DNA of 62,712 nucleotides from NCBI RefSeq assembly GCF_026586805.1, contig NZ_JAPFHA010000027.1, positions 1 through 62,712 of the forward strand, given 5' to 3'. This document shows, piece by piece, positions 18,275 to 37,046 of the stretch. The first letter of the stretch is position 1; each line of letters starts with the position of its first letter. This DNA comes from Niveibacterium sp. 24ML (lineage in GTDB: Bacteria; Pseudomonadota; Gammaproteobacteria; Burkholderiales; Rhodocyclaceae). A program made the position numbers and the translations under genes. The notes under the pieces were generated by a model. The model saw nothing but the letters and a program-made list of their open reading frames with translations. It did no database searches and was not told where the DNA came from.

Positions 18275-19068
18275 ACCTTCGGGACGTTCCCTTCGCAAGC
18301 GCTTCGCATCTACGCAGCGCGGGATTCTTTGATGCACTGATGCACCAATTCAGCGGCGACTATGCGGCCGTGGCGACCCTGTGGGTGCTGCTATATCGCC
18401 AGGCCGACTTAGCCCTGATTCCGACGAGCAATCGTGATATTGAGGGCTTTACCAAAGGGTGCATTACGAAGAACACGGCGGGTCGCTCGCTCGACCGTTT
18501 GGCGGACGCTGGCACCATTGTTCTGAAGAAGCACCCAAGGACGACAACTGAGGTTGGTGTTCGTCCAAGTGCGCTGACCGAGCGCATGGGCCGTTATGGG
18601 GCAATGATCAAACATTATTCATTGCCCCAAAACGACCAGCAGCATAATTGCACCGAACTTGGCGTTGGCGTCGCCGCGCGATCTGCTGAGCTTGCGGCGC
18701 GAATGGCCGGTGACTTCGCCGCCGCCCGTGTGCTCGTTGCTCTGATCGCGCTCGGCGCTGCGGACGGCTTTATCGCGATCAGTCGCCGCTCGCTCGCAGA
18801 GCAGGTGCAGGCGACTGTTACGGAGCGGGCCACGCGGCTGGCGCTTGACCGCTTGGTCGCACTTGGTTTGGTTGAACGGTGCGCTCGATCGAGTGTTGCC
18901 ACAGAGTTCCGAGTCCATTGCGAGGCGGTTGACGCCTTGCTCGCGCAGCCGTTGCCCTCGTCGGCGGTGCTGCCCGGTATCACCCCGTTAGACGACGCGC
19001 TGGCCCGCATCTTCGGGCAGCCCACCCCAAACACCCAAGCAGGAGACCGATCAAATGGCGAAAATTGA
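18271..19068 (+). CDS. Unknown protein with winged-helix features
   Basis: 265 residues, ATGA overlap with the initiator gene. Two repeats of a helix-turn-helix-like pattern are visible: NRDIEGFTKGCITKNTAGRSLDRLADAG near 45-75 and SRRSLAEQVQATVTERATRLALDRLVALGLVE near 170-205. This resembles a regulator or replication helper and continues the theme of tandem winged helices in the two preceding genes. No family name can be given. Codon use is a little poorer in GC than its neighbours in the first 400 bp. Confidence 0.6.
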   Translation: MNLRDVPFASASHLRSAGFFDALMHQFSGDYAAVATLWVLLYRQADLALIPTSNRDIEGFTKGCITKNTAGRSLDRLADAGTIVLKKHPRTTTEVGVRPSALTERMGRYGAMIKHYSLPQNDQQHNCTELGVGVAARSAELAARMAGDFAAARVLVALIALGAADGFIAISRRSLAEQVQATVTERATRLALDRLVALGLVERCARSSVATEFRVHCEAVDALLAQPLPSSAVLPGITPLDDALARIFGQPTPNTQAGDRSNGEN

Positions 19069-20224
19069 GTCAGTCGAGGGGGTCGCTGCCCCCAAGCGGA
19101 TGGTGAGCCCGACGCCGCGTGCGTCCTCACTCATGGCCGAAACCCCCGGTGTGCTGCCCCCACGCCACTGGGTTGAGTTGCCGATCGTGTTCGAGCGTGA
19201 GGAAGGCTCTCCCTTCCCGGATGGTTACAGCCTGACCAAAGAGCGCGTCGTATTGCGCGAGTTGCTCGAAGCGGACGATCCCGACTCCAACAGCCCACTG
19301 TGGCCGCGCTACGAGCTCTACGAGGAACGCCTGGCCCAGTACGAGCGCATGAAGACCGACTACCGGCTCAAGGTCGGTGCTGGGCCTGAGGTGCCGTATT
19401 CGGAGGCACGCAAGCTCAAGGAACTGGGCGGCTTGGTGGACGAGGGCGTCGATACGATGTCGATCCACACCAAGGAAGGGTTTCGGATGTTCCTGGGGCG
19501 TGGGCGCGACCCAGAGGGGCAGGTCAAGGCGATTCCGGGTGGCAAGCGCATGGCCTCATCGCTCAAGGCGCTGTGGTTGCTTTCGTCGCAGGACAACCCG
19601 TATGCCGACTGGGCGCTGCTGCGCGCAGCGACCTGTATCGAGGAGATTCAGGCTGAGCTGGAGCAGAAGATCAGCACCTACACCGAGCAGCTCGATGTCC
19701 TCAAGAAGCGCGGCCTGAGCGTGCATGTGCTCAAGTCCAGCGAGCCCAAGGAAGTTGAGCTCACTTTCAAGTCGCCCTATGGCTACCTGATCGCCGAGCT
19801 CGTGATCCAGTTCGACTACTACGTTCGCGTGGTCAAGACGATGATTCGCAAAGGGCGATTCACTGATGCAGCCGGCCGCGATGTGATCCGCACGACCACG
19901 CGCCGGATCCGCGCCTTCTTCGAGGAGATTGCGCGCTTTGATCGGTATCTGCTGCGACCCGAACTCAAAGGGCTGTGTCGTGCCGACTTCCTGCCGGGCG
20001 CTGATGCAGAGTCGGCCAAGCGGGTGAAGGCTGCGACAGGCATCTTCGGGCCGGTCCCTGAAGCAATCTTCACCGGCAAGATGGTGCCGCCGTATTCGCA
20101 GCGCAGGGCCGCGCCAATGAGCCCGGCTGAGCGTGAGTTGCTCGAACGCGTTGCCCATGACCTGATCGCGCAGGACGCTGCCGCTGAAGCGGGCGGTGAA
20201 GCAGCCGGCCAGGCCTTGGTGTGA
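19055..20224 (+). CDS. Integrative element protein, PFL_4669 family (TIGR03761)
   Basis: 389 residues with an AGGAGA site before ATG 19055; the start overlaps the end of the preceding gene. It contains MSIHTKEGFRMFLGRGRDP, GGKRMASSLKALWLLSSQDNPYADW and FKSPYGYLIAEL, all recognisable TIGR03761 stretches. Soluble, with a coiled-coil portion near 190-225. The family occurs next to replication genes of PFGI-1-like islands, and its biochemical role is unknown. Confidence 0.88.
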   Translation: MAKIESVEGVAAPKRMVSPTPRASSLMAETPGVLPPRHWVELPIVFEREEGSPFPDGYSLTKERVVLRELLEADDPDSNSPLWPRYELYEERLAQYERMKTDYRLKVGAGPEVPYSEARKLKELGGLVDEGVDTMSIHTKEGFRMFLGRGRDPEGQVKAIPGGKRMASSLKALWLLSSQDNPYADWALLRAATCIEEIQAELEQKISTYTEQLDVLKKRGLSVHVLKSSEPKEVELTFKSPYGYLIAELVIQFDYYVRVVKTMIRKGRFTDAAGRDVIRTTTRRIRAFFEEIARFDRYLLRPELKGLCRADFLPGADAESAKRVKAATGIFGPVPEAIFTGKMVPPYSQRRAAPMSPAERELLERVAHDLIAQDAAAEAGGEAAGQALV

Positions 20225-26363: not shown

Positions 26364-26708
26364 TTAGCGCTTGGGCTCGGCGCGGCGGTAAGCGCTGCGC
26401 TTGGACTTGAGCTCGCCCGAGCTCGCGTCAATCGCGAACACCTGCGGCGCGAAAAACGCAATGCGCAACGAACCATCTGCCAGGCGCGTGGCCTTGTACG
26501 TCTTTGGCCTGTATTGCGTGGGCTTGTCCGCGTAGATGATCGCCTCGCGGCCGAGCACTTCGTAGTGGCCGTCCGCCTGCTTGATTTCGATCTGGTTGCT
26601 CGGGTCCGTGGTGCTCGTCCAGGTGCCGACGTATTGATCAGCAGCGAGCGCGGTGGCGCCGTAGAAGGCACCCGCAGCAAGCAACATGCGAACAAGGTGT
26701 GAGGTCAT
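26364..26708 (-). CDS. Secreted small protein of unknown function
   Basis: 114 residues with a signal peptide (MTSHLVRMLLAAGAFYGATALAA). The mature part is beta-rich, starting DQYVGTWTSTTDPSNQIEI, which resembles small lipocalin-like or immunity-type domains. It is the only leftward gene between 9.2 and 47 kb, so it probably has its own promoter in 26709-26890. Could be a surface or entry-exclusion factor, but this is a guess from secretion only. Confidence 0.6.
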   Translation of the reverse strand: MTSHLVRMLLAAGAFYGATALAADQYVGTWTSTTDPSNQIEIKQADGHYEVLGREAIIYADKPTQYRPKTYKATRLADGSLRIAFFAPQVFAIDASSGELKSKRSAYRRAEPKR

Positions 26709-26890
26709 CGCGAGGATCCCGAGAGAAGGAGGCGGGGCACATTATGCCATTTGGGCGAGCGCCTCAAGATGAGGCAGATAACCCAAATTTCGCCAGATCC
26801 CTTGATGCGTCGGGCATGCAAAGATGCCCTGGGCGCGCTTTTCCACAGCCTTACGAACAGCAAATGTGGATTGTTCCGCTTCGGGCCGCC

Positions 26891-26920
26891 TTGACGGCGC
26901 GATGTGTCCAGTTGTAGAAG
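26891..26920 (+). promoter_or_regulatory. Putative sigma-70 promoter for leader RNA 1
   Basis: TTGACG at 26891-26896 and TAGAAG at 26915-26920 with an 18-bp spacer. The start would fall just upstream of the first structured leader. The remainder of 26709-26890 shows no gene I can support. Confidence 0.4.
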
Positions 26921-26939
26921 GGCTTTGTGTGTGCAGTAC

Positions 26940-27012
26940 CGCTGATCGACGTGTCGATCGGCGTTTTGGAATCCGTCAGCCCCTTTAACGGAGACAGCCG
27001 CAAGGCTCGGGG
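26940..27012 (+). ncRNA. Pseudoknot leader RNA, copy 1
   Basis: P0 stem CGC-GATCGAC/GTCGATC-GCG (26940-26963), U-rich linker, P1 TCCGT/ACGGA (26972-26992), loop with CAG then CCCC (26980-26983), P2 AGCC-GCAA-GGCT (26996-27007), and GGGG (27009-27012) pairing back to CCCC to close an H-type pseudoknot. Precedes the 113-residue membrane protein gene. See copies at 27896, 28743, 30057 and 32458. Confidence 0.75.
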
Positions 27013-27031
27013 TCGCGTGTTGTATCCATCA

Positions 27032-27091
27032 CCCGCCGGGAAGATCGCCTTCCCGCCAGGGGTGCGTTCTCCCGGTTTAACCAGGAGAACG
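27032..27091 (+). promoter_or_regulatory. Double hairpin and anti-SD stem before 27093
   Basis: Outer CCC (27032-27034)/GGGG (27059-27062) encloses inner CGGGAAG/CTTCCCG. Then CGTTCTCC (27065-27072) pairs over 8 bp with GGAGAACG (27084-27091), which holds the ribosome site of the next gene. Translation would be off when the second stem forms. Confidence 0.7.
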
Positions 27092-27092
27092 T

Positions 27093-27434
27093 ATGAGCAA
27101 GTTCAGTATTCGCCGCGCCCGTCTGGGTGCTTTCAAAAGTCGCTTCCGCCTGCCGGGAGCATTGCGTCGTCCGCGTTCGCGTCAGGAAGGCATCATGATC
27201 CTGAGGTGGCTGGCCACGCGAAGTGAAGAGGTGGCCAAGTACGGTTCGGTCATCGCAGGTATCGCGTCGCTCCAGTCCTACTGGGGCTTGATCGGCACTT
27301 GCGCGGTCTACGTGATGTGTCACGGGCTTGCCTTGCACTTTACGTTGCGCGCAAGACGTCTTGAGGAGCTGCCGGTCATTGTGCTCGGTGCTCATCATGA
27401 CGAACGTGGCGCTCGCAGCAAGGGCTCCCCTTGA
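27093..27434 (+). CDS. Membrane protein of unknown function behind leader RNA 1
   Basis: 113 residues with a GGAG site sequestered in a stem. A very basic N-terminus (Arg-rich, about 1-32) leads to a hydrophobic stretch with KYGSVIAGIASL and GLIGTCAVYVMCHGLALHF, one or two membrane segments at about 48-80. No family is recognised. It is the first gene of the leader-controlled cluster. Confidence 0.6.
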   Translation: MSKFSIRRARLGAFKSRFRLPGALRRPRSRQEGIMILRWLATRSEEVAKYGSVIAGIASLQSYWGLIGTCAVYVMCHGLALHFTLRARRLEELPVIVLGAHHDERGARSKGSP

Positions 27435-27491
27435 TGGGCGTCGGTGTGGAGTTACCCCTCTGAATCGACTAACATCAAATGGAGACTCATC

Positions 27492-27626
27492 GTGAGCACA
27501 ACCATGACGCCGCATCTGTGGACTATCTTTGGCTGCATCTCTGTACTGTTCGTGATTGGCTTGATCGCCTTGCGCTATTACGGCAATCCAGACCGCTACC
27601 GGGATGACTACACCAACCAGAAGTGA
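27492..27626 (+). CDS. Micro membrane protein, first of a tandem pair
   Basis: 44 residues from GTG 27492 (TGGAGA 6 bases upstream), or 40 from ATG 27504. One membrane segment, then a charged tail ending DRYRDDYTNQK. It is clearly paralogous to the product of 27684-27806: both start MTP-aromatic-LWT and carry a GC pair, an IG in the helix and a YxDDY tail. Probable regulator or stabiliser of a larger membrane protein. Confidence 0.65.
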   Translation: MSTTMTPHLWTIFGCISVLFVIGLIALRYYGNPDRYRDDYTNQK

Positions 27627-27683
27627 GGCAATTGAGCGCGCCCTGCGTAAGCGGGGCGTGCTTGCCGAGTCCTTTTGACGATC

Positions 27684-27806
27684 ATGACACCTTACCTTTG
27701 GACGCTCGTGGGCTGCGGGGCCGTGCTGTATGTGATCGGCAGCATTGCTCTATACCAGCTCGAAAAGGCACGTCCGTACTACGACGATTACGAAGAGCGT
27801 CAATAA
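27684..27806 (+). CDS. Micro membrane protein, second of a tandem pair
   Basis: 40 residues (MTPYLWTLVG, tail RPYYDDYEERQ), one membrane helix. Paralogue of the preceding micro gene with about half of positions identical. The ribosome site is poor, so it may be translated by coupling. A terminator follows 14 bp after its stop. Confidence 0.65.
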   Translation: MTPYLWTLVGCGAVLYVIGSIALYQLEKARPYYDDYEERQ

Positions 27807-27819
27807 CCACCCCATAACC

Positions 27820-27840
27820 CCCTGTATAACAGGGCGTTTT
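27820..27840 (+). terminator. Rho-independent terminator
   Basis: Stem CCCTGT/ACAGGG (27820-27834) followed by CGTTTT. Ends the micro-gene unit just before the promoter of leader RNA 2. Confidence 0.7.
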
Positions 27841-27846
27841 ACCCAC

Positions 27847-27875
27847 TTGACATCGCAGTGGGGGAAGGTCTAAAA
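27847..27875 (+). promoter_or_regulatory. Sigma-70 promoter for leader RNA 2
   Basis: Perfect -35 TTGACA at 27847-27852, -10 TCTAAA at 27869-27874 (16-bp spacer) or CTAAAA at 27870-27875. Position agrees with a transcript that begins shortly before the P0 hairpin. The best promoter of the five leaders. Confidence 0.65.
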
Positions 27876-27895
27876 AGACACTGTCTTTGTTGTAC

Positions 27896-27965
27896 CGCTG
27901 GTTGTCATGACCGGCGTTTTGGAATCCGTCAGCCCCTTTAACGGATACAGCCGCAAGGCTCGGGG
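27896..27965 (+). ncRNA. Pseudoknot leader RNA, copy 2 (before DUF3577 gene)
   Basis: P0 CGC-GGT/ACC-GCG (27896-27916), P1 ATCCGT/ACGGAT (27924-27946), CAG then CCCC in the loop (27933-27936), P2 AGCC-GCAA-GGCT (27949-27960), GGGG at 27962-27965 closing the pseudoknot. Published RNA screens have named candidate motifs upstream of DUF3577 genes; whether this is one must be checked in Rfam. Confidence 0.8.
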
Positions 27966-27980
27966 TCTCGTGTTTCATCA

Positions 27981-28042
27981 CCCTCTGGGAAGCGTTCACT
28001 TCCCAACAGGGGACGTGCGCTCTCCCGTTTTGTCTCTGGAGA
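27981..28042 (+). promoter_or_regulatory. Double hairpin and anti-SD stem before the DUF3577 gene
   Basis: CCC (27981-27983)/GGGG (28009-28012) around TGGGAAG/CTTCCCA. TCTCC at 28021-28025 pairs with the ribosome site GGAGA at 28038-28042, but can pair instead with GGGGA at 28009-28013, giving two exclusive states. Confidence 0.65.
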
Positions 28043-28047
28043 TCATC

Positions 28048-28554
28048 ATGCGCAACGTCAATTCCAACGCTTTCTCTTCGTCTAACACCGCCAATGGCGA
28101 CAAGCAGTTCTTTGATCTGCATGTCAAAGGTTGCGGATATTTGTCTCGCGTTCGGTATGTCGAAACCAAGAAAGGTGGCCGCAAGTCAGCCCCCTTCCTC
28201 GCATGCGTGATCAACGCCATGCACGGTGACGCCGACGAACCGAGCTACACCTACTTCGACCTCCGCGTTTCAGGGGAAGAAGCGGCCTTCCTGATCGAGT
28301 CCCTCGATCTGGGCGCTGCGGCAGACAAAGACAAAAAAGTCTTTGTGGCTTTCAAAGTTGGCGACATCTATGCCCACCATTACGAGCGTAAAGCGCGTGA
28401 GGGAAATGGCACGGAGACCGCTGCTTTGATCAAGGGCCGTTTGCTGCAGCTCACGCACATCAAGGTCGATGGTGAAGTGGTGTATGAACGTCCGGCACCG
28501 GAAGCTCAAGACGAGAGTCAAGAGCCCCAGTACCGTACCGGCACCGACAATTGA
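28048..28554 (+). CDS. DUF3577 protein (STY4534-like island replication protein)
   Basis: 168 residues, ATG 28048. The family core is clear: FFDLHVKGCGYLSRVRYVETKKGGRKSAPFLAC-type start, YTYFDLRVSGEEAAFLIE, VFVAFKVGDIYAHHYE and LLQLTHIKVDGEVVY, an OB-like beta-rich fold comparable to SSB. NCBI uses the name STY4534 family ICE replication protein for it. It may act on single-stranded DNA after transfer. Expression is expected to follow leader RNA 2. Confidence 0.85.
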   Translation: MRNVNSNAFSSSNTANGDKQFFDLHVKGCGYLSRVRYVETKKGGRKSAPFLACVINAMHGDADEPSYTYFDLRVSGEEAAFLIESLDLGAAADKDKKVFVAFKVGDIYAHHYERKAREGNGTETAALIKGRLLQLTHIKVDGEVVYERPAPEAQDESQEPQYRTGTDN

Positions 28555-28566
28555 GAGACGAGCTGC

Positions 28567-28601
28567 ACTTTGCACCGACGCCTCGCGCGCCGGTGCAAAG
28601 T
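28567..28601. terminator. Hairpin after DUF3577 gene
   Basis: Perfect 11-bp stem ACTTTGCACCG (28567-28577) / CGGTGCAAAGT (28591-28601), 13-base loop, no clear T run. May be a weak terminator or an mRNA 3' end protector. Confidence 0.45.
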
Positions 28602-28742
28602 TGTCCCAAGCCTCACAAGCGCAGCCCCTGATCTTCAGGGCGCTGTCCAGAACAGTGCATCATGCCGTTTGGGTGTGTTATTGTTGCGGACAGTGCAGTT
28701 TTGATGAATTCCAACGTTTTGCGTGTTTCGTTAAAAACACGA

Positions 28743-28812
28743 CGCAGCTTCGGCTGTGAGGCATTTCGAGATCCGTCAGCCTCTGAAACGGAAACGGTCG
28801 CAAGACCTGAGG
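28743..28812 (+). ncRNA. Pseudoknot leader RNA, copy 3 (before DUF3275 gene)
   Basis: P0 CGCAGC-TTCG-GCTGTG (28743-28758), P1 TCCGT/ACGGA (28772-28792), loop CAG then CCTC (28780-28783), P2 GGTC-GCAA-GACC (28796-28807), and GAGG (28809-28812) closing. The pseudoknot strands changed on both sides (CCCC to CCTC, GGGG to GAGG), a compensatory change. An extra hairpin CGTGTTT/AAACACG lies just upstream. Confidence 0.8.
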
Positions 28813-28928
28813 CCACGTAGTCTAGGCCGGGAGCTCCCTGGTGCTGTTCGTCTCCGCTAAATTCGACCAAAGCCATAGCAACCCGCGCCCGCATCAGGAC
28901 TGGAAATCCTGCTGCAATCTCCAAACCC

Positions 28929-28953
28929 AAACCGCCAACTCCGTTGGCGGTTT
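28929..28953 (+). terminator. Terminator-like hairpin inside the DUF3275 leader
   Basis: Perfect 11-bp stem AAACCGCCAAC/GTTGGCGGTTT with a 3-base loop. It lies between the pseudoknot and the gene, so it could act as an attenuator. Confidence 0.45.
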
Positions 28954-28965
28954 CCCAATTCTCAA

Positions 28966-29028
28966 CCCGTCGGGGACCGATCCCCGCCACGGGTGGCGTT
29001 CTCCGATACCTTCCCTTCTGGAGACGCC
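28966..29028 (+). promoter_or_regulatory. Double hairpin and anti-SD stem before the DUF3275 gene
   Basis: CCCGT/ACGGG around CGGGG/CCCCG (28966-28993). GGCGTTCTCC (28995-29004) pairs with GGAGACGCC (29020-29028, the ribosome site) over 9 bp with one bulged T. Confidence 0.7.
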
Positions 29029-29031
29029 CTC

Positions 29032-29727
29032 ATGCCAGTTCGCATTCAGGGCACCTTGACCGTCAAACGGATCAACGGTGCCAACGGTCCCTTCTGTGTA
29101 GGTTCGCTCGTCAGCGAGATCGGCGAGTTCCGCGTCAAGGATGCGGTGCTTGAGCAGTTCGAGGAGGGCGCCTACCAGGGCACCTTCTGGATTGCCCAAA
29201 TCTTCCCCTCGTCGTACATCACCAACGGCCGCATGGTCGTTGAAATCCGCGCCAAGCTCGCCGATCTACAGATCGATGAGCACGATGCCAAGGCACAGGC
29301 AACGCCTGAGCAAGAACCTGATCCGGTCAATGAAGCGACCCAAGCGACCCCCGTGGGCGCCCAAGCCGCTTCCCGCCGTCCTCTACCCGGCAAACCCAAG
29401 CCGGCCACTGCACCCCATCAAAACCCTGCAACACCTGCCGTCGAGTCCCGAGTGGATTCACACCCCGCAGATAGCCGCGCGCCCCAAGCATCGCAAAGCG
29501 CGGCGACTGCGAACGCACCTGCCAGCACTGAAGCACCGGTGATCGAGCAGGCGCGTGATCTGGCCCTGTTCGGCGAATCACTCTTTGCCGAGCTGAACGC
29601 GGGCTTGCCGATCAAGCTCGATCCCACGATCGATCGCTTGAAGTTCCGCGAGCAGATCATGCGTCTGCGGGCACTGGGGTACGCCCCGAACGCCAAGACA
29701 CAAACCTGGGAGCGTCAAGCGACCTAA
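29032..29727 (+). CDS. DUF3275 family protein
   Basis: 231 residues. The N-terminal 85 residues are the conserved domain (IQGTLTVKRING, FCVGSLVSEIGEFRVKD, LEQFEEGAYQGTFWIAQIFPSSY, GRMVVEIRAKL), followed by a disordered Pro/Ala/Gln linker and a C-terminal helical piece (FGESLFAELNAGLPIKLDPTIDR). The family is confined to conjugative islands; function unknown. Single gene between leader RNA 3 and a strong terminator, so it is probably its own transcription unit. Confidence 0.82.
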   Translation: MPVRIQGTLTVKRINGANGPFCVGSLVSEIGEFRVKDAVLEQFEEGAYQGTFWIAQIFPSSYITNGRMVVEIRAKLADLQIDEHDAKAQATPEQEPDPVNEATQATPVGAQAASRRPLPGKPKPATAPHQNPATPAVESRVDSHPADSRAPQASQSAATANAPASTEAPVIEQARDLALFGESLFAELNAGLPIKLDPTIDRLKFREQIMRLRALGYAPNAKTQTWERQAT

Positions 29728-29753
29728 AGCGCACCTGACCGTGCCTTCCTTAC

Positions 29754-29776
29754 CCCGCTGTCCGCAGCGGGTTTTT
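29754..29776 (+). terminator. Rho-independent terminator after DUF3275 gene
   Basis: CCCGCTG-TCCG-CAGCGGG followed by TTTTT. An overlapping 10-bp repeat TTTTCACTGC / GCAGTGAAAA (to 29804) may make it bidirectional. The rest of 29777-30000 shows no gene I can support. Confidence 0.75.
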
Positions 29777-30008
29777 CACTGCACATCGCACATGCGCAGT
29801 GAAAAGCCCGCCACGCTGGCAGGCCTTCCAAGCAGGGCAGCAGCCGTCCGACAGGCTGTGGCATTTGCGCCGCGTGCGCAGACCCAATCGGCATCCCAGG
29901 CTCTCAAATTCGGGGTGTCTCGCCGGCGAATCACCGACACGCATCGCGTTCGGCGCCGGCGTCAGAGAGCAACGTCGAAGACCTCTTTCAAGCTGAACCT
30001 CGCGTCAG

Positions 30009-30046
30009 GTTCTCAGGGCACGTTCGATCGAGCGTGCCGCGAGAAC
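30009..30046. repeat. Inverted repeat upstream of leader RNA 4
   Basis: GTTCTC-AG-GGCACG and CGTGCC-GC-GAGAAC pair over 12 bp with a mismatched pair in the middle, around a centre containing CGATCG. Could be an operator or a leader hairpin; no clear promoter is visible next to it. Confidence 0.5.
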
Positions 30047-30056
30047 TTGCTGCACC

Positions 30057-30128
30057 CACGCGCAATCAGCGGCGTGGTTTGAGGCCTGTCAGTCCCTGGA
30101 TACAGGCACGGGCATTACGCCCTGGGAC
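30057..30128 (+). ncRNA. Pseudoknot leader RNA, copy 4 (before methyltransferase gene)
   Basis: P0 CACGCGC/GCG-CGTG (30057-30076, one bulge), P1 GCCTGT/ACAGGC (30084-30107), loop CAG then TCCC (30093-30096), P2 GGGC-ATTAC-GCCC (30110-30122), GGGAC (30124-30128) pairing with GTCCC. Nearly every paired position differs from the other copies, yet all pairs are kept. Confidence 0.75.
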
Positions 30129-30200
30129 ACCGTAAGCACCTTCCCGCAACACCCCTTTCACACGCCGCTGCTGCGGCACACCGAGCTCTCAACCCACCCG

Positions 30201-30245
30201 CCCACGGGCTTGCCCCGTTGGGCATCCGTGCGGCCATTGCAATGG
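30201..30245 (+). promoter_or_regulatory. Double hairpin and palindrome before methyltransferase gene
   Basis: CCC/GGG around CGGG/CCCG (30201-30222). The palindrome CCATTGCAATGG at 30234-30245 covers the start of the ribosome site (GGAGG). Confidence 0.55.
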
Positions 30246-30256
30246 AGGTCTTTGTC

Positions 30257-31360
30257 ATGGCTTTGATGTTCAACCGGCTCGCTCACAACTTCATCAAGAA
30301 CGGCTACTACCCCACCGACGAGGCAACGCTCGCCGGCATCGTGAGCGCCATCGAACCTTCTGGCACGCGGATCCGCATCTTTGATCCGTGCTGTGGTGAA
30401 GGCACGGCGCTGGCCACGCTCAAGCAGCACCTGGTGCAATTGGCAGCGGTGCAGGCCTTGGGCGTGGAATACGACGCCGAGCGCGCTTGGCACGCCAAGC
30501 GGCTGCTCGATACGGCGCTGCACAGTGACATCCATGACGTCACGTTCACGGCCCGCTCGATGGGGCTCTTGTTCCTCAACCCGCCTTACGGCGATGTGGT
30601 GGCCGACAAGGCGCAAACGAGTGGCGAGAGTGGCGGCCGCGCGAGACTGGAGAAGCTCTTCTTCCGGCGCACCTGGTCCTCGCTCAAGATCGGCGGGTTG
30701 CTGGTGCTGATCGTGCCCTTCTACGTGCTCGATGCCGAGTTCGCGCAGATGATCGCGCGCAACTTCGAGCAGGTGCGCTTCTTCATGGCACCGGAGCGCC
30801 AGTTCAAGCAGTGCGTCGTGTTTGGCGTGCGTCGTCGGAGCGATCGACCCAACCCTGCCATTGCCGAGCTCCTGGAGCGCGGTGGTCGGGGCGAGATCGC
30901 GGACGTGTTGCCGCAGGCCTGGCCGGATGAACCTTACGCCGTGCCCGACTGTGACCTGGACGATCCGGCCTTTCGCCTCAACGCGGTGCGTCTTGACGCC
31001 CCCCAGTTGGAAGCGGAAGTGGATCGTTTGAACGCCTCGACCTTGTGGCCCTCGTTCGCCACCTTCTTCGCTCAGGGCTATCTCGCGCCGCGTGCGCCGC
31101 TCTGTCCGATGCGCCCCTGGCACTTGGCCCTGGCGCTTGCGGCAGGGCAGGTGGGCGGTGTGGTGCGCTCGCCCGATGGCCGCGTCTTGTTCGTGAAGGG
31201 TGACACCTTCAAGGCCAAGCGCGATCACGTGGATGTGCAAACCAACGAGGACGGGTCGATCACCGAAACGCGCGTGTCGACCGATGTGTTCGTGCCGTTG
31301 ATCCGTGGCATTGACTTCACGCCGGGCGCCTCTCTGGGCTCGATTGTGACGGTCAGCTAA
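30257..31360 (+). CDS. DUF6094-type DNA methyltransferase
   Basis: 367 residues, ATG 30257 behind GGAGG. SAM motif I is IFDPCCGEGTALATL (about 42-56), and the catalytic motif IV is LFLNPPYGD (about 113-121), so an amino-methyltransferase acting on adenine or cytosine of DNA is expected. The acceptor motif and target are unknown. It has no restriction partner nearby; a role in protecting incoming DNA or marking the plasmid is possible. Family recognised from the DUF6094-like start HNFIKNGYYPTD. Confidence 0.78.
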   Translation: MALMFNRLAHNFIKNGYYPTDEATLAGIVSAIEPSGTRIRIFDPCCGEGTALATLKQHLVQLAAVQALGVEYDAERAWHAKRLLDTALHSDIHDVTFTARSMGLLFLNPPYGDVVADKAQTSGESGGRARLEKLFFRRTWSSLKIGGLLVLIVPFYVLDAEFAQMIARNFEQVRFFMAPERQFKQCVVFGVRRRSDRPNPAIAELLERGGRGEIADVLPQAWPDEPYAVPDCDLDDPAFRLNAVRLDAPQLEAEVDRLNASTLWPSFATFFAQGYLAPRAPLCPMRPWHLALALAAGQVGGVVRSPDGRVLFVKGDTFKAKRDHVDVQTNEDGSITETRVSTDVFVPLIRGIDFTPGASLGSIVTVS

Positions 31361-31374
31361 GCGGGGAGGGCGTC

Positions 31375-31566
31375 ATGGAAGAGCTCACCGAGAAGCGCAG
31401 CTACAGCGTCGAGTTCACCCGCTTTGCCTACCACTACGCCGGCCGCTGGCATCCAGCGTGTCGGATGACGTGGAAAGTACAAGCCGTATCACCGCGTGAG
31501 GCCTTGCGTCTGGCCAAAGCGCGTTACCGCCGCGCGGACAAGTTCCGCGTCACCGAATCGGGCTGA
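31375..31566 (+). CDS. Small hypothetical protein
   Basis: 63 residues, 14 bp after the methyltransferase, with GGGGAGG ribosome site. Basic, aromatic N-terminal half (FTRFAYHYAGRWHPACRMTW) and a helix PREALRLAKARYRRADKF. Could be a small nucleic-acid binder. It lacks a leader of its own and is probably cotranslated with the methyltransferase mRNA. Confidence 0.6.
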   Translation: MEELTEKRSYSVEFTRFAYHYAGRWHPACRMTWKVQAVSPREALRLAKARYRRADKFRVTESG

Positions 31567-31602
31567 TCGCCCGACTCATTCAAGCCGTGTCAATCCGTGC
31601 GA

Positions 31603-31628
31603 CCCGTGGGGAACCGTTCCCCTACGGG
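31603..31628 (+). promoter_or_regulatory. Double hairpin in the leader of 31674
   Basis: CCCGT/ACGGG around GGGGAAC/GTTCCCC, one bulged T. Same plan as the other leaders, though its ribosome-site pairing partner is weak here (ATCT with AGAT). Confidence 0.6.
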
Positions 31629-31673
31629 GCGCTGCCCTGCATCGCACATCTTCATCTGAGAAGGAGATCTACC

Positions 31674-32261
31674 ATGCAGCAAGCAGTTACCCCGGAGAGT
31701 TGCGCACGTGAGCTGTGGATGCTCATCGATCAGCGCGAAGTCAATACCATCAGCGGCCGGCGCGTCGATCGCTCCGAGCGCGCGGTGGTCGAGCGGTACG
31801 TGCGCAAGACCGTCCAGGTCTTTGCCGCGTCCGAACTGGTGGTGCGCTCGGTGGGCGTGCCGCTCAGCGTCAAACATGGCGACCACGCGCAGGTGCTCAG
31901 CACGGTCGAGCGGATCCGCACGTGCTTCTACAAGCGCCTGGTGGACACGCTCGCGCGGCTCGATCGTCGGCGGATGGCCCCGGAAGTCGAGGCCTCGCCG
32001 ATGGCCGTGCTGCACTACGCGGGCAGTTTGCTTGCCGAGCTCGAGCGCCGACTGGGCGATGCGCGCGAGGCAGACATTCAGGCCACGGTGCGTCTTGAGC
32101 TGAGCACACTGGCGCGCGTGCTCTCAAGTCGTCTGACGCGCGATGCCCTGTTCTTTGATGTGCAAACGGCCAGCACCCGGATCCCCGATCGCGCCGATCT
32201 GGAGATTCACCTGGTCAATGCACCGCATGACTTCTGGCTCGTGTCCTTGCTCATTGAGTGA
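31674..32261 (+). CDS. Hypothetical helical protein
   Basis: 195 residues, ATG 31674 behind AGGAGA; a longer frame from 31587 would run through the leader hairpin. Almost all helix, with many Arg pairs, for example RRVDRSERAVVERYVRKTVQVFAA. No known domain. Length and composition suggest a DNA- or RNA-associated factor. The gene is bounded by leader hairpin and a long inverted repeat. Confidence 0.6.
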   Translation: MQQAVTPESCARELWMLIDQREVNTISGRRVDRSERAVVERYVRKTVQVFAASELVVRSVGVPLSVKHGDHAQVLSTVERIRTCFYKRLVDTLARLDRRRMAPEVEASPMAVLHYAGSLLAELERRLGDAREADIQATVRLELSTLARVLSSRLTRDALFFDVQTASTRIPDRADLEIHLVNAPHDFWLVSLLIE

Positions 32262-32297
32262 GGGGGCGATCTGGCAGCGGCGGCTCTCTTAACCCAG

Positions 32298-32359
32298 CAG
32301 ACCCCCCTCGATGAGAGGGGTCTGATTCGAGCGCATCGACGGTGCGTTGGAATCAGACC
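32298..32359. repeat. Two mutually exclusive hairpins between 32261 and leader 5
   Basis: CAGACCCC (32298-32305) pairs with GGGGTCTG (32317-32324), while GGTCTGATTC (32319-32328) pairs perfectly over 10 bp with GAATCAGACC (32350-32359). The two share bases, so only one can form. Could be terminator and antiterminator, although no T run is present. Confidence 0.6.
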
Positions 32360-32410
32360 AAGGGCACTCGCAAGAGGCCCAAGCGCCTTGTGGCGCAGGG
32401 CAAAACCGGC

Positions 32411-32438
32411 TTGCGCCCCCATGCGCGTTGAGTACAAT
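32411..32438 (+). promoter_or_regulatory. Sigma-70 promoter for leader RNA 5
   Basis: TTGCGC at 32411-32416, 16-bp spacer, TACAAT at 32433-32438. A start near 32445 would place P0 at the very 5' end of the RNA. Confidence 0.55.
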
Positions 32439-32457
32439 GGAATCGCTTCTGTAGTAC

Positions 32458-32528
32458 CGCAGACTCTCCCGAGTCGGCGTTTTGTGATCCGTCAGCCCCT
32501 GTCACGGATACGACCGAAAGGTCCGGGG
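32458..32528 (+). ncRNA. Pseudoknot leader RNA, copy 5
   Basis: P0 CGC-GACTC/GAGTC-GCG (32458-32479), P1 ATCCGT/ACGGAT (32487-32509), CAG then CCCC (32496-32499), P2 GACC-GAAA-GGTC (32512-32523), GGGG (32525-32528). P2 changes on both strands relative to copies 1 and 2 while the GNRA loop stays. Confidence 0.8.
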
Positions 32529-32546
32529 TCATCCTTGCATCATCCA

Positions 32547-32619
32547 CCCGAACGGGAAGAACTCACTTCCCGCTTCTGGGGACGTGCGCTCTCCCGTTTT
32601 TTCGTTTCTGGAGAACGTC
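32547..32619 (+). promoter_or_regulatory. Double hairpin and anti-SD stem before 32620
   Basis: CCC/GGGG around CGGGAAG/CTTCCCG (32547-32581). GACGT+TCTCC (32581-32594) pairs with GGAGA+ACGTC (32610-32619) over 10 bp with a four-base bulge; alternatively GGGGA/TCTCC forms just before a run of six T, like a terminator. Confidence 0.7.
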
Positions 32620-32997
32620 ATGTCCAAGCCCGTTGAAGCCCTCAATCCCGTCGATGTCCTTCACGCAACTGCCGTCGAGCAGTGGCAACACCTCTTCGAG
32701 CGCATCCGTGACCCGTTGGTTGCGGCTGTGTTGGTCGAGACGCTTGAGAGCGATGCATCGCTCAAAAAGCAGTTCGCCGCCGCTTACACGCTCGCGCGTG
32801 AAACCCTGGCACGAGACGCGGCTCGTCGCGCTCGCGCCGACCGTAGCCGTCAGCAACGTGCTGTGCTCGCAAGCGCCCTGCGCGCCTTTGCGGTCAAAGC
32901 GGGCTTGATGACGCCGACCCCTCAAAAGGTCAGCATCAGCACTCCTGCGCAGCGCAATGAAGAAACCTTGGTCTGGCCCACGCTTAACCAGGCGTAA
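32620..32997 (+). CDS. Hypothetical protein behind leader RNA 5
   Basis: 125 residues. Helical, with an Arg/Ala-rich central stretch (ARDAARRARADRSRQQRAVLA) that would be a strongly basic helix, and a polar tail. No family recognised; a nucleic-acid binding role is plausible from charge alone. Confidence 0.6.
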   Translation: MSKPVEALNPVDVLHATAVEQWQHLFERIRDPLVAAVLVETLESDASLKKQFAAAYTLARETLARDAARRARADRSRQQRAVLASALRAFAVKAGLMTPTPQKVSISTPAQRNEETLVWPTLNQA

Positions 32998-33017
32998 CTG
33001 ACCACCGCATCAAACCA

Positions 33018-33078
33018 CCCATGGGGACACGCACCCCATGGGGCGTGTCTCCCCCGTTTATCTCTCGTGGAGCACGCC
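33018..33078 (+). promoter_or_regulatory. Competing hairpins with 10-bp anti-SD stem before 33079
   Basis: GGCGTG+CTCC (33042-33052, one bulged T) pairs with GGAGCACGCC (33069-33078). The same bases can pair upstream with GGGGACACGC (33023-33032), and CATGGGG/CCCCATG (33020-33040) is a third option. This is the clearest case of a three-strand switch. Confidence 0.75.
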
Positions 33079-33531
33079 ATGTCCCAAGCCAACGTAGTCC
33101 TCTTCAAGCAACCTGTCGCATCGCTCGATGCACTGATCGTCAAAGCCGTCGCACTGCCCCCCGCGCAATTGCACATGATCGATGAGATCAAACGTGTGAT
33201 GCACGCGGAGCTGCTTTGCGCGCCACTCGAAGGCGCCGATCCTTGGCTCCTGGAGTTGCTCGCAGTGCAAGCGCACCAGGTTGTGATCGGTCGCGTGGCA
33301 CGTCCATTCGTGGCCTCTGAGTGGGTCACCCGGCGCAACTTCTTCGGCACTCACCATGCTGCAGAACGCGTCCTGTGCTCGGATGGCTGCTTTCACGACA
33401 TCGCCGATAGCGGTGTGGTGGTGGCGCGCTTTCCGACCATGTTCGCAGCGGAGGCGGCCGGCTATCTGGCCCTCAACCGCCGCGACGATGCAGTGGTTTG
33501 CGTGACAACGCGACCCTATCTGCAAAAGTAA
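33079..33531 (+). CDS. Hypothetical protein
   Basis: 150 residues, ATG 33079. The N-terminal half is helical (AQLHMIDEIKRVMHAELL), the C-terminal half beta-rich with a SDGCFHDIADSGVVVARF stretch. No catalytic motif seen. No relative is recognised, although it may be an island gene with a DUF number. Confidence 0.6.
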   Translation: MSQANVVLFKQPVASLDALIVKAVALPPAQLHMIDEIKRVMHAELLCAPLEGADPWLLELLAVQAHQVVIGRVARPFVASEWVTRRNFFGTHHAAERVLCSDGCFHDIADSGVVVARFPTMFAAEAAGYLALNRRDDAVVCVTTRPYLQK

Positions 33532-34760: not shown

Positions 34761-37046
34761 ATGCAGACCAATCTGGCCCCGGCCACCCCCGTTCGACTGG
34801 CGCTGCCGGCACCCGCGACGTTTGCGCTGCCGCAGTTCGTTTCAACCTTCAGCGACAGCCTCATTGCGGCCGTCAGAGAGCAAAACCCGCCCGTCTATGA
34901 GGGGCAGTGCCACCCGGCCCGCGATCGCGTGCTGGACGGCCTAAAACGCAAACCGTTCGACGCGCAGCGCAACACGGTGCAGGCGGTCAGCGCCTTGCTG
35001 GTCGATGCCAATGAACCGGCCGCGATCATCAACGCGGAGATGGGCACGGGCAAGACCATGATGGCGATTGCGACCGCTGCAGTGATGCACGAGGAGGGCT
35101 ACCGGCGCACGCTGATCATCTCGCCACCGCACCTGGTCTACAAGTGGCGGCGCGAGATCCTCAGTACTGTGCCGGGCGCTCGGGTGTGGGTGCTCAACGG
35201 CCCCGATACCCTGCGCAAACTGCTCGCCATTCGCGCCACGATGCGTCCTGCTGAGGTGCCCGAGTTCTTTGTGCTCGGGCGCGTGCGGATGCGGATGGGC
35301 TATCACTGGCGTGCTGCCTTCAGCGCACGGCGCACGGTCTATCGCGACGAGCTGGGCGCGCTGCACCATGCCCGCTACGCCGCGTGCCCGGACTGCGGTG
35401 AGTACCTGATCGACCCGGATGGCGAGGGTCAGCCCTTGTCGCCCGAGCTCGCTCGGGTCGCGCTCGAAGAGCGGCGCCTCTCGTGCACGCACTGCGGTTC
35501 GCGCTTGTGGACCCTGGTGCGCAAACGTGGCGCGGTGCGGCCCAAACGGGAGATCGTGCTCGATGCGCTGCAGAAGTTGCCGACGATCGGCGAGAAGACG
35601 GCGCAGCGGCTCCTTTCCGGTTTCGGTGAGGATCTGCTGGGCTCCATGCTCGAAGACAACGTGTTCGAGTTCATCAATCTGATGGACGAGAACGGCGACC
35701 TGGTGTTCTCCGACCGGCAAGCAGTGCGGATGGAGCGGGCGCTCTCAGCGACGGAGTTCTCGTTCGGACAGGGTGACTATCAGGCCACCGAATTCATCAA
35801 GCGGTATCTGCCTCAGGGTTACTTCGGTCTGCTCGTGGTCGATGAGGGCCACGAGTACAAGAACGAGGGGAGTGCGCAAGGGCAGGCGATGGGTGTGCTG
35901 GCACGCAAGTGCCGCAAAACCTTGCTGCTGACCGGCACCTTGATGGGCGGCTACGCCGATGATCTGTTCTACCTGCTCTGGCGGCTCAACCCCACGGCGA
36001 TGGTGCAGGACGGCTATCGGGTCAATGCCCGTGGCAGTCTGGGTACGGCCGCGCAAAGTTTCATGCGCGACCACGGCGTGCTCAAGGACATCCACAAGGA
36101 GACCACGAGCGTGTCGCACCGGACCTCCAAAGGGGAGTCGAAATCCGATCGAACGAGCAAGGGGGCGGGCTTCGGACCCAAGGGGGTGATGCGTTATGTC
36201 CTTCCCTGGACCGTGTTCCTCAAGCTCGCGGAGATCGGCGGCAACGTGTTGCCGGCCTACAAAGAGCACTTCGTTGAAGTGGCCATGTCGGACGATCAGG
36301 CGAGCGCTTACGAGCGTCTTTCCGGGTCGCTGCGGGCCGAGCTCAGGCAAGCGCTGGCCAAGGGGGACACCACCTTGCTCGGCGTGGTCTTGCAGGTGCT
36401 CTTGGCCTGGCCAGATTGTGCGTTCCGCGAGGAGCGTGTCGTTCATCCGCGCAGTCGCTCACTGTTGGCCTTCCAGCCGCCGGTGTTCGATGAGCAAACG
36501 TGGACGCCCAAGGAGCGTGAGCTGCTGGACCTGTGCAAGCGGGAAAAGGCGCGGCACCGCAAGGTGCTCGCCTACACCGTCTACACAGGGACACGCGACA
36601 CCACGGCGCGCTTGAAGCGGCTGCTTGAGAGCGAAGGCTTTCGGGTAGCGGTGCTGCGTGCCAGTGTCGAAGCGGTCAAGCGTGAGGATTGGGTCGCTGA
36701 CCAGGTGGAGCGGGGCGTTGATGTCCTGCTCACCAACCCGGAGCTCGTAAAGACCGGGCTGGACCTGCTCGACTTCCCGACGATCGCCTACATGCAGTCG
36801 GGCTACAACGTTTATACGCTGCAACAGGCCTCCCGTCGCTCGTGGCGGATTGGCCAGAAGCAGGATGTCGACGTGTACTTCTTTGGCTACGGCGCCACCG
36901 CACAGATGGCGTGCCTGGAGCTGATGGCCAAGAAGATCGCGGTCTCTCAATCGACCTCCGGGGACATGCCCGAATCGGGCCTGGACATCCTGAATCAGAA
37001 CGAGGACAGCATCGAAGTTGCGCTGGCCAAGCAGTTGATGGCCTGA
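34761..37046 (+). CDS. SNF2-like helicase with zinc-ribbon insertion
   Basis: 761 residues. Motif I MGTGKTMM (about 94-101), motif II VVDEGHEYK with DEGH in place of DEAH (about 359), motif III LLLTGTL, and C-terminal motifs with LDLLDFPTIAYMQSGYNVYTLQQASRRSWRIGQKQDV. Between motifs I and II there is an insertion of about 150 residues with four cysteines CPDCGEYL (about 210) and CTHCGSRL (about 245), probably a zinc ribbon, followed by a helix-hairpin-helix-like PTIGEKTAQRLL. This enzyme is a frequent part of conjugative islands. Confidence 0.85.
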   Translation: MQTNLAPATPVRLALPAPATFALPQFVSTFSDSLIAAVREQNPPVYEGQCHPARDRVLDGLKRKPFDAQRNTVQAVSALLVDANEPAAIINAEMGTGKTMMAIATAAVMHEEGYRRTLIISPPHLVYKWRREILSTVPGARVWVLNGPDTLRKLLAIRATMRPAEVPEFFVLGRVRMRMGYHWRAAFSARRTVYRDELGALHHARYAACPDCGEYLIDPDGEGQPLSPELARVALEERRLSCTHCGSRLWTLVRKRGAVRPKREIVLDALQKLPTIGEKTAQRLLSGFGEDLLGSMLEDNVFEFINLMDENGDLVFSDRQAVRMERALSATEFSFGQGDYQATEFIKRYLPQGYFGLLVVDEGHEYKNEGSAQGQAMGVLARKCRKTLLLTGTLMGGYADDLFYLLWRLNPTAMVQDGYRVNARGSLGTAAQSFMRDHGVLKDIHKETTSVSHRTSKGESKSDRTSKGAGFGPKGVMRYVLPWTVFLKLAEIGGNVLPAYKEHFVEVAMSDDQASAYERLSGSLRAELRQALAKGDTTLLGVVLQVLLAWPDCAFREERVVHPRSRSLLAFQPPVFDEQTWTPKERELLDLCKREKARHRKVLAYTVYTGTRDTTARLKRLLESEGFRVAVLRASVEAVKREDWVADQVERGVDVLLTNPELVKTGLDLLDFPTIAYMQSGYNVYTLQQASRRSWRIGQKQDVDVYFFGYGATAQMACLELMAKKIAVSQSTSGDMPESGLDILNQNEDSIEVALAKQLMA

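Follow-up and report, generated by a model that had tools for sequence, protein, structure and literature searches.

The contig NZ_JAPFHA010000027.1 of Niveibacterium sp. 24ML (62,712 nucleotides (nt), analysed over its whole length and hereafter called the window) carries five copies of a short pseudoknotted motif, each upstream of a different gene. As judged by sequence comparison, the motif represents a genuine family of covarying leader RNAs, present in multiple copies, mostly betaproteobacterial and unmatched in Rfam, and the window copies are almost certainly cis-acting leaders of messenger RNAs (mRNAs).

Five copies of a pseudoknotted leader

By direct reading, folding and alignment of the window, all five copies were found on the + strand at the positions claimed in a preliminary description of this DNA. 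In each, a P0 hairpin and a linker are followed by helix P1, the loop CAG-NNNN-U-NN-A, a nested helix P2, and, last, a strand that closes the pseudoknot by pairing with the P1 loop. The core, about 44 nt long, is an H-type pseudoknot enclosing a nested hairpin. These leaders lie about 80-220 nt 5' of the start codons of five separate genes, one of them coding for a DUF3577 protein, as had been described. The gap between core and start is 78-89 nt in copies 1, 2 and 5, and other hairpins are visible there by eye.

Copy 1 begins with a P0 hairpin (26940-26963) and a TTTTG linker; its core (26971-27014; 53.2 bits with the covariance model presented below) is made of P1, a CA-GCCCC pseudoknot strand, P2 with a GCAA loop, and GGGGT. 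P0 and core are located at 27896-27916 and 27924-27967 in copy 2 (55.1 bits), at 28743-28758 and 28771-28814 in copy 3 (54.0 bits, pseudoknot GCCUC/GAGGC), at 30056-30077 and 30084-30129 in copy 4 (49.2 bits, pseudoknot GUCCC/GGGAC), and at 32458-32479 and 32487-32530 in copy 5 (54.6 bits). The P1, P2 and pseudoknot pairs listed earlier are correct, and the P2 loop is, as announced, usually GNRA (GCAA, GCAA, GCAA and GAAA in four of the five copies, ATTAC in the copy at 30 kb). The pseudoknot strand had been given as 4-5 bases: its pairing stands, the four-base-pair (bp) version does not, since the pseudoknot has 5 bp, the fifth being G-U in three copies and G-C in two. The window loops read CAGCCCCUUUA (twice), CAGCCUCUGAA, CAGUCCCUGGAU and CAGCCCCUGUC, and loop positions A8, C11, U14 and A18 are invariant in 13 rows.

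Two patterns in the degenerate code of the International Union of Pure and Applied Chemistry, derived from the copies, match exactly these five in the window. The first gave 4 matches with 0 mismatches, at least 4 being reached in 0 of 100 shuffles (mean 0.27); the second, with one extra loop base, gave 1 match, and at least 1 was seen in 26 of 100 shuffles, so that it is not significant alone. A covariance model built on ten seed rows, window copies included, scores these copies at 49-55 bits, by construction, and its next best site in the 4.64-Mb genome at 19.9 bits. The model thus gives no other good site in the genome, and the Rfam search advised in the preliminary description returned no family. 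P0, without sequence conservation, is a less specific feature: a stem of at least 5 pairs within 45 nt upstream was found in 80 of the 88 copies collected below (mean best-hairpin score 15.45 vs 11.85 in shuffles, top of 40 shuffled sets 12.55). A relaxed structure descriptor was equalled by 7, 2, 1, 0 and 5 of 60 shuffles for copies 1 to 5, respectively. A single leader alone is therefore a modest signal, and the evidence rests on comparison.

Covariation and wobble pairs point to a folded transcript

In the 10-row seed (window and two plasmids), 97.3% of the pairs are standard over 15 pairs, with both-sided changes at 13 of them. This pairing was reached by 0 of 500 shuffles, and it fell to 43-45% when partners were shifted by one base. 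In this seed (A5), the rows from loci L002 and L003 came from descriptor scans demanding pairing, and the rows are the subset that MAFFT aligned well, chosen among eight subsets tried; the rows of A6-A9 were fitted to P1 and P2. Because some seed rows were found by demanding pairing, the pseudoknot in later rows is the better test. For this clean test, the search models held P1 and P2 only, and the window, L002 and L003 were excluded. Over 26 rows, 127 of 129 pseudoknot cells pair, all five pairs form in 23 rows, and two-sided changes are found at 4 of the 5 pairs; in a larger set of 53 distinct rows, 252 of 255 pseudoknot cells pair, with two-sided changes at 3 of the 5 pairs. For the whole structure, 97.7% of cells are paired among 38 rows (two-sided changes at 14 of 15 pairs; 0 of 500 shuffles), and 98.3% among 65 distinct rows (13 of 15 pairs).

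Read on the coding strand, wobble pairs are G-U in 53 and A-C in 4 of 947 cells; 34 of the 53 G-U stand in one column, and the P1 and P2 rows were found with a model tolerating G-U. The counts are 19 vs 3 after dropping the outermost pseudoknot pair. For the 53 rows, the pseudoknot cells, to which no model had been fitted, give 31 vs 1, one column holding nearly all of them. An excess of G-U on the coding strand fits a folded transcript and is the opposite of what a folded template strand would give.

These data bear on two explanations at the level of DNA. That the repeats are double-stranded DNA operators, as the long nearly identical stretch common to copies 1, 2 and 5 might suggest, is scarcely credible in view of the two-sided changes in all three helices, pseudoknot included. 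The preliminary description had opposed its covarying RNA fold to a lack of covariation in homologues and to a site dependent on double-stranded DNA; covariation in relatives is strong, the wobble pairs favour the transcript strand, and the operator reading is refuted in its simple form. It is also highly improbable that the structure acts in single-stranded DNA (ssDNA) during transfer, like the Frpo promoters of leading regions. The gene set found behind the copies, with oligonucleotide-binding (OB)-like, methyltransferase and RadC proteins and antirestriction genes nearby (in L004, L047 and L049), does resemble leading-region genes. A Frpo-like sequence precedes a gene for a single-stranded DNA-binding protein (SSB) in plasmids, and the likeness to Frpo/ssi lies in folded elements placed, in conjugative elements, ahead of genes for ssb and anti-defence functions, as far as the excerpt available of the source goes (PMC11541004). 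Unlike Frpo/ssi, the window type has its wobble bias towards the transcript strand and -10-like boxes, where seen, mostly upstream of the structure, and copies are found on both strands within 25 kb of the related genome G049.

Relation to the radC RNA

No Rfam 15 family matches the window copies, either in the window at gathering thresholds or in 26500-33200 at expect values (E) up to 10, where four chance-level matches fell far below gathering and outside the cores; five further loci with copies gave no match at gathering. The preliminary description had mentioned published motifs near DUF3577 genes. Such a motif exists, the radC RNA (RF01754), named after RadC genes, and the window RNA does not match it. 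RF01754 gave 0 matches in the window at gathering (40 bits), none at E up to 10 on 26500-33200, and none in the whole window genome; none was found in 14 control genomes either, and the model works in other scans. Among 274 genomes of the class, 1 genome had 4 matches. The radC RNA is present in 3-4 copies in each of the L045, L046 and L050 stretches (pKLC102, a Stutzerimonas plasmid and an Enterobacter plasmid), and in each of them one copy precedes DUF3577.

The radC RNA consensus consists of a P0 hairpin, P1 with a GauC loop strand, a nested P2, then uGaUC. The P1/pseudoknot/P2 topology could be placed in 14 of 14 radC RNAs (best-fit script, no shuffle control), with paired strands GATC/GATC (4), GGTC/GACC (5), GACC/GGTC (2) or others (3). 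The two RNAs therefore have in common the core topology (P0, P1, loop strand, P2, pseudoknot strand), the presence of several copies per element, and their place in leaders of mobile-element genes (DUF3577, RadC). They differ in the loop, CAG-NNNN-U in the window as opposed to ACGAUCUUCAA in the radC RNA, whose loop consensus acGauCUUCAA is absent from the window type. The window type also lacks the second 3' pseudoknot (GUUCGC..GCGAAC) and the terminal hairpin of the radC RNA (cmscan), the model of which has 149 positions.

DUF3577 is present in 24 of 200 related genomes, and 28 distinct loci were examined. Eighteen have a radC RNA, and four (L107, L108, L110, L114) have a leader matching search model R2 of the window type at 28.6 bits or more. 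The remaining six have a window-type fold by weaker signs only: leader R2 matches of 15.1 and 17.5 bits in L105 and L109, a 15.7-bit R2 match before a small gene preceding DUF3577 in L111, and the structure descriptor only in L104, L106 and L115. The descriptor score was equalled by 5 of 60 shuffles for L104, 2 of 60 for L105, and 0 of 60 for the other four. A loop variant (such as GAGAUCUCCUGAAA, with P2 GGCC GCAA GGCU) is seen in the DUF3577 leaders of L104, L105, L106, L109 and L115, which R2 scored at 15-17 bits or not at all; this variant is a possible bridge between the two RNA types. Genomes G049 and G104 carry both types at separate places, the radC RNA in L098 and L094, and the window type in L114 and L039-L041. 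Five plasmid DUF3577 leaders were tried outside this sample, and that of L002 had a fitting structure that beat 60 of 60 shuffles. A third candidate variant is seen by eye 5' of DUF3577 in L047 and L049 (in L049, GTCCT-CCATCCCTCAC-AGGAC), and was missed by the descriptor.

Two results stand against the explanation favoured here. The DUF3577 leaders of L004, L047, L048 and L049 gave no convincing match with the descriptor; the best structure in L049 beat 60 of 60 shuffles, but it sits elsewhere and its pseudoknot is AT-rich. In addition, R2 fails to recognise radC cores, even without filters, the sole exception being a chance-level 7.8-bit match overlapping one radC site in L045. Common descent with the radC RNA is for this reason not demonstrable, and a single model for both RNA types was ruled out. 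Architecture, place and genes are nevertheless shared, and the window RNA is very probably a short, sequence-distinct, functional counterpart of the radC RNA.

A 2010 publication, according to the excerpt available, introduced the radC RNA as a structured RNA candidate (Weinberg et al. 2010, PMC2864571), and a re-analysis, likewise available as an excerpt, counts it among families with extra covarying pairs (PMC7657543). No function for the radC RNA was found in the literature searched, of which partial texts were available. Nor did that literature, which does not include a 2017 screen that reportedly produced 224 motifs, yield a description of the window RNA, of which a published but uncurated one is conceivable.

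Distribution of the copies and genes behind them

Of 200 related genomes, 10 are matched by search model R1 (E up to 0.1). At least 3 copies are present in five of these (G000 5, G049 7, G104 3, G108 4, G078 4), and one or two weak copies in each of the other five; the host of the window shares its GTDB family with G108. Among 369 genomes sampled evenly from the class, R2 (strict filters, a shallow first look) found the window's own only. On the contigs of 84,980 species genomes, a pattern scan picked out 29 stretches; Aromatoleum accounts for 12, and further ones come from Azoarcus, Denitromonas, Thiobacillus, Hydrogenophilales, a Dokdonella and an unclassified gammaproteobacterial metagenome-assembled genome. 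R2 gave no full match (E up to 1) in four other stretches (Actinomycetes, Butyrivibrio, Serratia, Rhodobacter). Among viral contigs, a search with the DUF3577 protein found none, and the 4 stretches that fitted the core pattern were all without an R2 match at this threshold.

With Comamonas, Nitrogeniibacter and Burkholderia plasmids included, the total comes to 88 non-redundant copies, mostly betaproteobacterial. They are the 96 rows of A8 and A9 minus 8, of which 2 were partial (L056, L077) and 6 identical over the core and 20 nt on either side; near-identical copies were retained. Low-scoring sites at L017, L019, L020 and L026, as well as an 18-bit site within a DUF6094 gene, were taken as chance and excluded from A8. 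A crude start finder placed a start codon at most 300 nt downstream of 69 of the 88 copies, and further off, with some mispredictions, for 11. None was found for 8, of which 5 are at a locus end, 2 are the first of a tandem pair, and 1 is in L002, where an annotated gene lies 72 nt downstream.

By BLAST against the window proteins, the copies are linked to DUF3577 (15), DUF3275 (13), DUF6094 (12) and the gene for 125 amino acids (aa) behind copy 5 (4), counts that include the window copies and come to 44 of the 88; the 113-aa gene behind copy 1 is linked once, to the window itself. Ten unlinked genes were scanned: one is RadC-like (L040, PF04002, 7e-37), another resembles CCDC90 weakly, a third matches DUF551, also weakly, and seven are without family. 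An annotated radC is found behind a weak copy in L003 (19.2 bits, outside the 88). The GUCCC pseudoknot strand is kept in 12 of 12 DUF6094 leaders, and also occurs before some other genes. Elements can hold many copies: 7 in 25 kb of G049, 5 in the window, and 5 plus a weak sixth in L003. Tandem pseudoknots about 400-500 nt apart are seen before one gene in L047 (13051/13514), L049 (11120/11628) and L051 (5593/5201).

Between the core and the start codon

In 30 of the 88 copies (no control), the best -10-like box has its start 35-46 nt 5' of P1, and in 7 related copies it is located at -11. From these boxes we infer a promoter just upstream, with the structure near the 5' end of the message. 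Such a location, together with a P0 that is usually present and variable in sequence, would suit an mRNA stabiliser or translation booster, a 5' structure blocking 5'-end-dependent decay without any ligand. We consider this unlikely, as the conserved loop letters and the covarying pseudoknot exceed the needs of a simple 5' hairpin.

In the copy 1 leader, a hairpin on the + strand (GCGTTCTCC / GGAGAACGT, 27064-27092) covers the ribosome-binding site (RBS); it is weaker or absent in the other four. Across 66 leaders, RBS pairing scores 16.05 vs 13.47 in shuffles (top of 30 sets 14.05), through stems like GCGATCTCC/GGAGATCGT or GTGTCC/GGACAC, a result pointing to translation as the controlled step. 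In 16 radC-type DUF3577 leaders, an RBS hairpin was not above shuffles (13.78 vs 12.53, top of 30 sets 14.16, mismatch-free score). The other window leaders score 13, 13.5, 10.5, and 18.5 through different pairing, and the window gene at 34761, without pseudoknot, also has a long RBS hairpin. By eye, RBS hairpins are also seen at 28021-28042, 32578-32619, and before 33079.

A pseudoknot upstream of a paired RBS could also be a riboswitch, in which the former would be a small-molecule or ion aptamer and the RBS hairpin the output. Aptamers often take the form of a small H-type pseudoknot with conserved loop letters, and both the invariant A8, C11, U14 and A18 and the RBS pairing above shuffles would fit. 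The preQ1-II, SAM-II and fluoride riboswitches likewise have an H-type pseudoknot in a leader. Unlike them, the window RNA has no Rfam match at the thresholds used, and its genes are those of a mobile element, not of a metabolic pathway. Moreover, no stem common to aptamer and output was seen, and the RBS hairpin, long in the window at copy 1 only, is also found before gene 34761, so that a riboswitch has a small chance of being the right explanation.

Transcription could be controlled instead, because terminator-like sites are present in the copy 2 and copy 5 leaders. A terminator scan of 26500-33200 gave 9 sites, vs 5.5 (standard deviation 2.3) in shuffles, among them hairpins with a T tract at 28009-28025 (copy 2) and 32578-32594 (copy 5), as well as the P0 of copy 5. 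Those two sites overlap the region able to pair with the RBS. A strong hairpin, partly identified by eye, lies on the + strand between copy 3 and the DUF3275 start (28929-28953), and such a hairpin is present in 12 of 13 DUF3275 leaders; 5 of the 13 show a clear T tract behind it, identified by eye in two cases. The 5' structure, apparently near the transcript start, would then modify RNA polymerase (put-like antitermination) or govern a downstream terminator. This is improbable in our view: a clear T tract is missing in 8 of the 13 DUF3275 leaders (L051, among these, has no hairpin), the excess of terminator-like sites is small, and Pfam scans of 40 window proteins named no NusG-type protein.

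A further hairpin with changing stems and the loop C(N)GGAAA is seen by eye in DUF3275 leaders (window 28891-28915; L002, L003, L038, L042, L065). Its loop is reminiscent of the GGA-loop sites of CsrA/RsmA proteins. Pairing of leader G-tracts with the pseudoknot strand was considered and dropped on inspection by eye, since a changed strand (L003, L022) is not accompanied by a matching change in the leader.

Genes of the window and the element

All five genes behind the window copies are on the + strand. The gene after copy 1 (27093-27434, 113 aa) has no confident family in family searches. It is followed by two related 40-codon frames, 27504-27626 (MTPHLWTIFGC..) and 27684-27806 (MTPYLWTLVGC..), which look like membrane peptides. 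Copy 2 precedes the DUF3577 gene (28048-28554; PF12101, 1e-41), STY4534-like and related to proteins of integrative and conjugative elements, with an NCBIfam score below its cut-off; copy 3 precedes a DUF3275 gene (29032-29727; PF11679, 3.9e-46), and copy 4 a DUF6094, methyltransferase-like gene (30257-31360; PF19587, 7.5e-31). The gene after copy 5 (32620-32997, 125 aa; Pfam scan, BLAST) has weak relatives after other copies (L003, L043, L049).

In the Pfam scan, the contig encodes TraI_2, TraG, TraC and an AcaB-family protein, and is on that account taken as part of a conjugative element. It had been called a single plasmid, and may be either a plasmid or an integrated element. The AcaB-family (PF08900) regulator at 19055-20224 is a candidate transcriptional activator of the element.

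A candidate trans factor

The regulon-like spread over five genes announced in the preliminary description is borne out, and we infer a common trans signal for the five copies. A Pfam scan of 40 window proteins gave, among others, AcaB, SSB, helicases, methylases, TraI_2, TraG, TraC and a resolvase, and no obvious RNA-binding regulator among the families named.

Structure prediction offers a candidate. The predicted fold of DUF3577 is beta-beta-beta-alpha-beta-beta, with a mean predicted local distance difference test (pLDDT) of 66. Among the PDB matches listed by Foldseek, 43 of 50 are SSB proteins, the rest being PriB and editosome OB proteins. For DUF3275, the first 83 residues are modelled with a pLDDT near 90 (whole mean 70), and 50 of the 50 matches listed are SSB proteins. 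DUF3577 and DUF3275 thus tentatively resemble SSB proteins in their models, a likeness to be taken as a lead only, given the low template-modelling (TM) scores and the lack of a solved relative in sequence-profile searches.

A precedent is known in phage T4. According to the excerpt available, gp32, an ssDNA-binding protein, represses its own mRNA, a 5'-terminal pseudoknot being the nucleation site (PMC535899). In the same excerpt, this pseudoknot lies upstream of the RBS, there of an ssDNA-binding protein gene, as would be the case in the window leaders (PMC535899). Unlike the gene 32 leader, the window leader is structured, not UUAAA-rich, and found before many genes instead of one. Given the gp32 precedent and the SSB-like models, we favour an OB-fold reader. 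All copies would be read by one trans factor, an element-encoded single-strand-binding protein, foremost DUF3577, with DUF3275 as another candidate. It would dock on the pseudoknots near the 5' end and repress translation of its own and sister messages, and ssDNA arising from replication or conjugation would titrate it away, releasing translation. This OB-protein mechanism, drawn by analogy, is possible, and we hold it as tentative.

Several observations weigh against this explanation. A sigma-70-like promoter scan of 26500-33200 returned 0 sites, 1.2 being expected by chance, so that the 5'-terminal position is deduced from looser -10 boxes. The long RBS helix is seen in the window at copy 1 only (21.5), and 43 of the 88 copies are unlinked by BLAST to window genes or have no gene found. 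The leader 3' of the pseudoknot is structured, the gp32 operator less so. The window-type copies of G104 lie far from its only DUF3577 gene, whose leader is radC-type. The protein models are poor: TM-scores by query are 0.23-0.39, an E of 0.001 or better was obtained in 1 of 741 Foldseek matches for DUF3577 and in 0 of 713 for DUF3275, and sequence profiles of both proteins find no solved relative, SSBs included.

The pseudoknots might also be read by another trans factor, a host or element protein of non-OB fold or a small RNA. Many copies per element, with common loops on different stems, would be expected from it as well; no candidate stood out in the Pfam families of the 40 window proteins, and we judge it rather unlikely. 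Taken as worded, the whole explanation, with RNA leaders, a counterpart of the radC RNA and OB-protein control, may equally well prove right or wrong.

A second, much smaller RNA with the core of the radC RNA in the leaders of the same genes would reduce the problem to a 44-nt pseudoknot that is directly assayable. The finding also names a gene set common to both RNAs, and offers a candidate partner, the possibly SSB-like proteins encoded by two of these genes. Should the explanation hold, the control of a class of conjugative elements would gain a post-transcriptional layer. In a bolder version, to which we give only a modest chance, the two alternative leader RNAs, radC and short type, would form a post-transcriptional ssDNA sensor in such a class of elements: element-encoded OB-fold proteins, bound to many leader pseudoknots, would be released by the unwinding of DNA for replication or by its entry into a recipient, and the whole establishment regulon would be switched on together.

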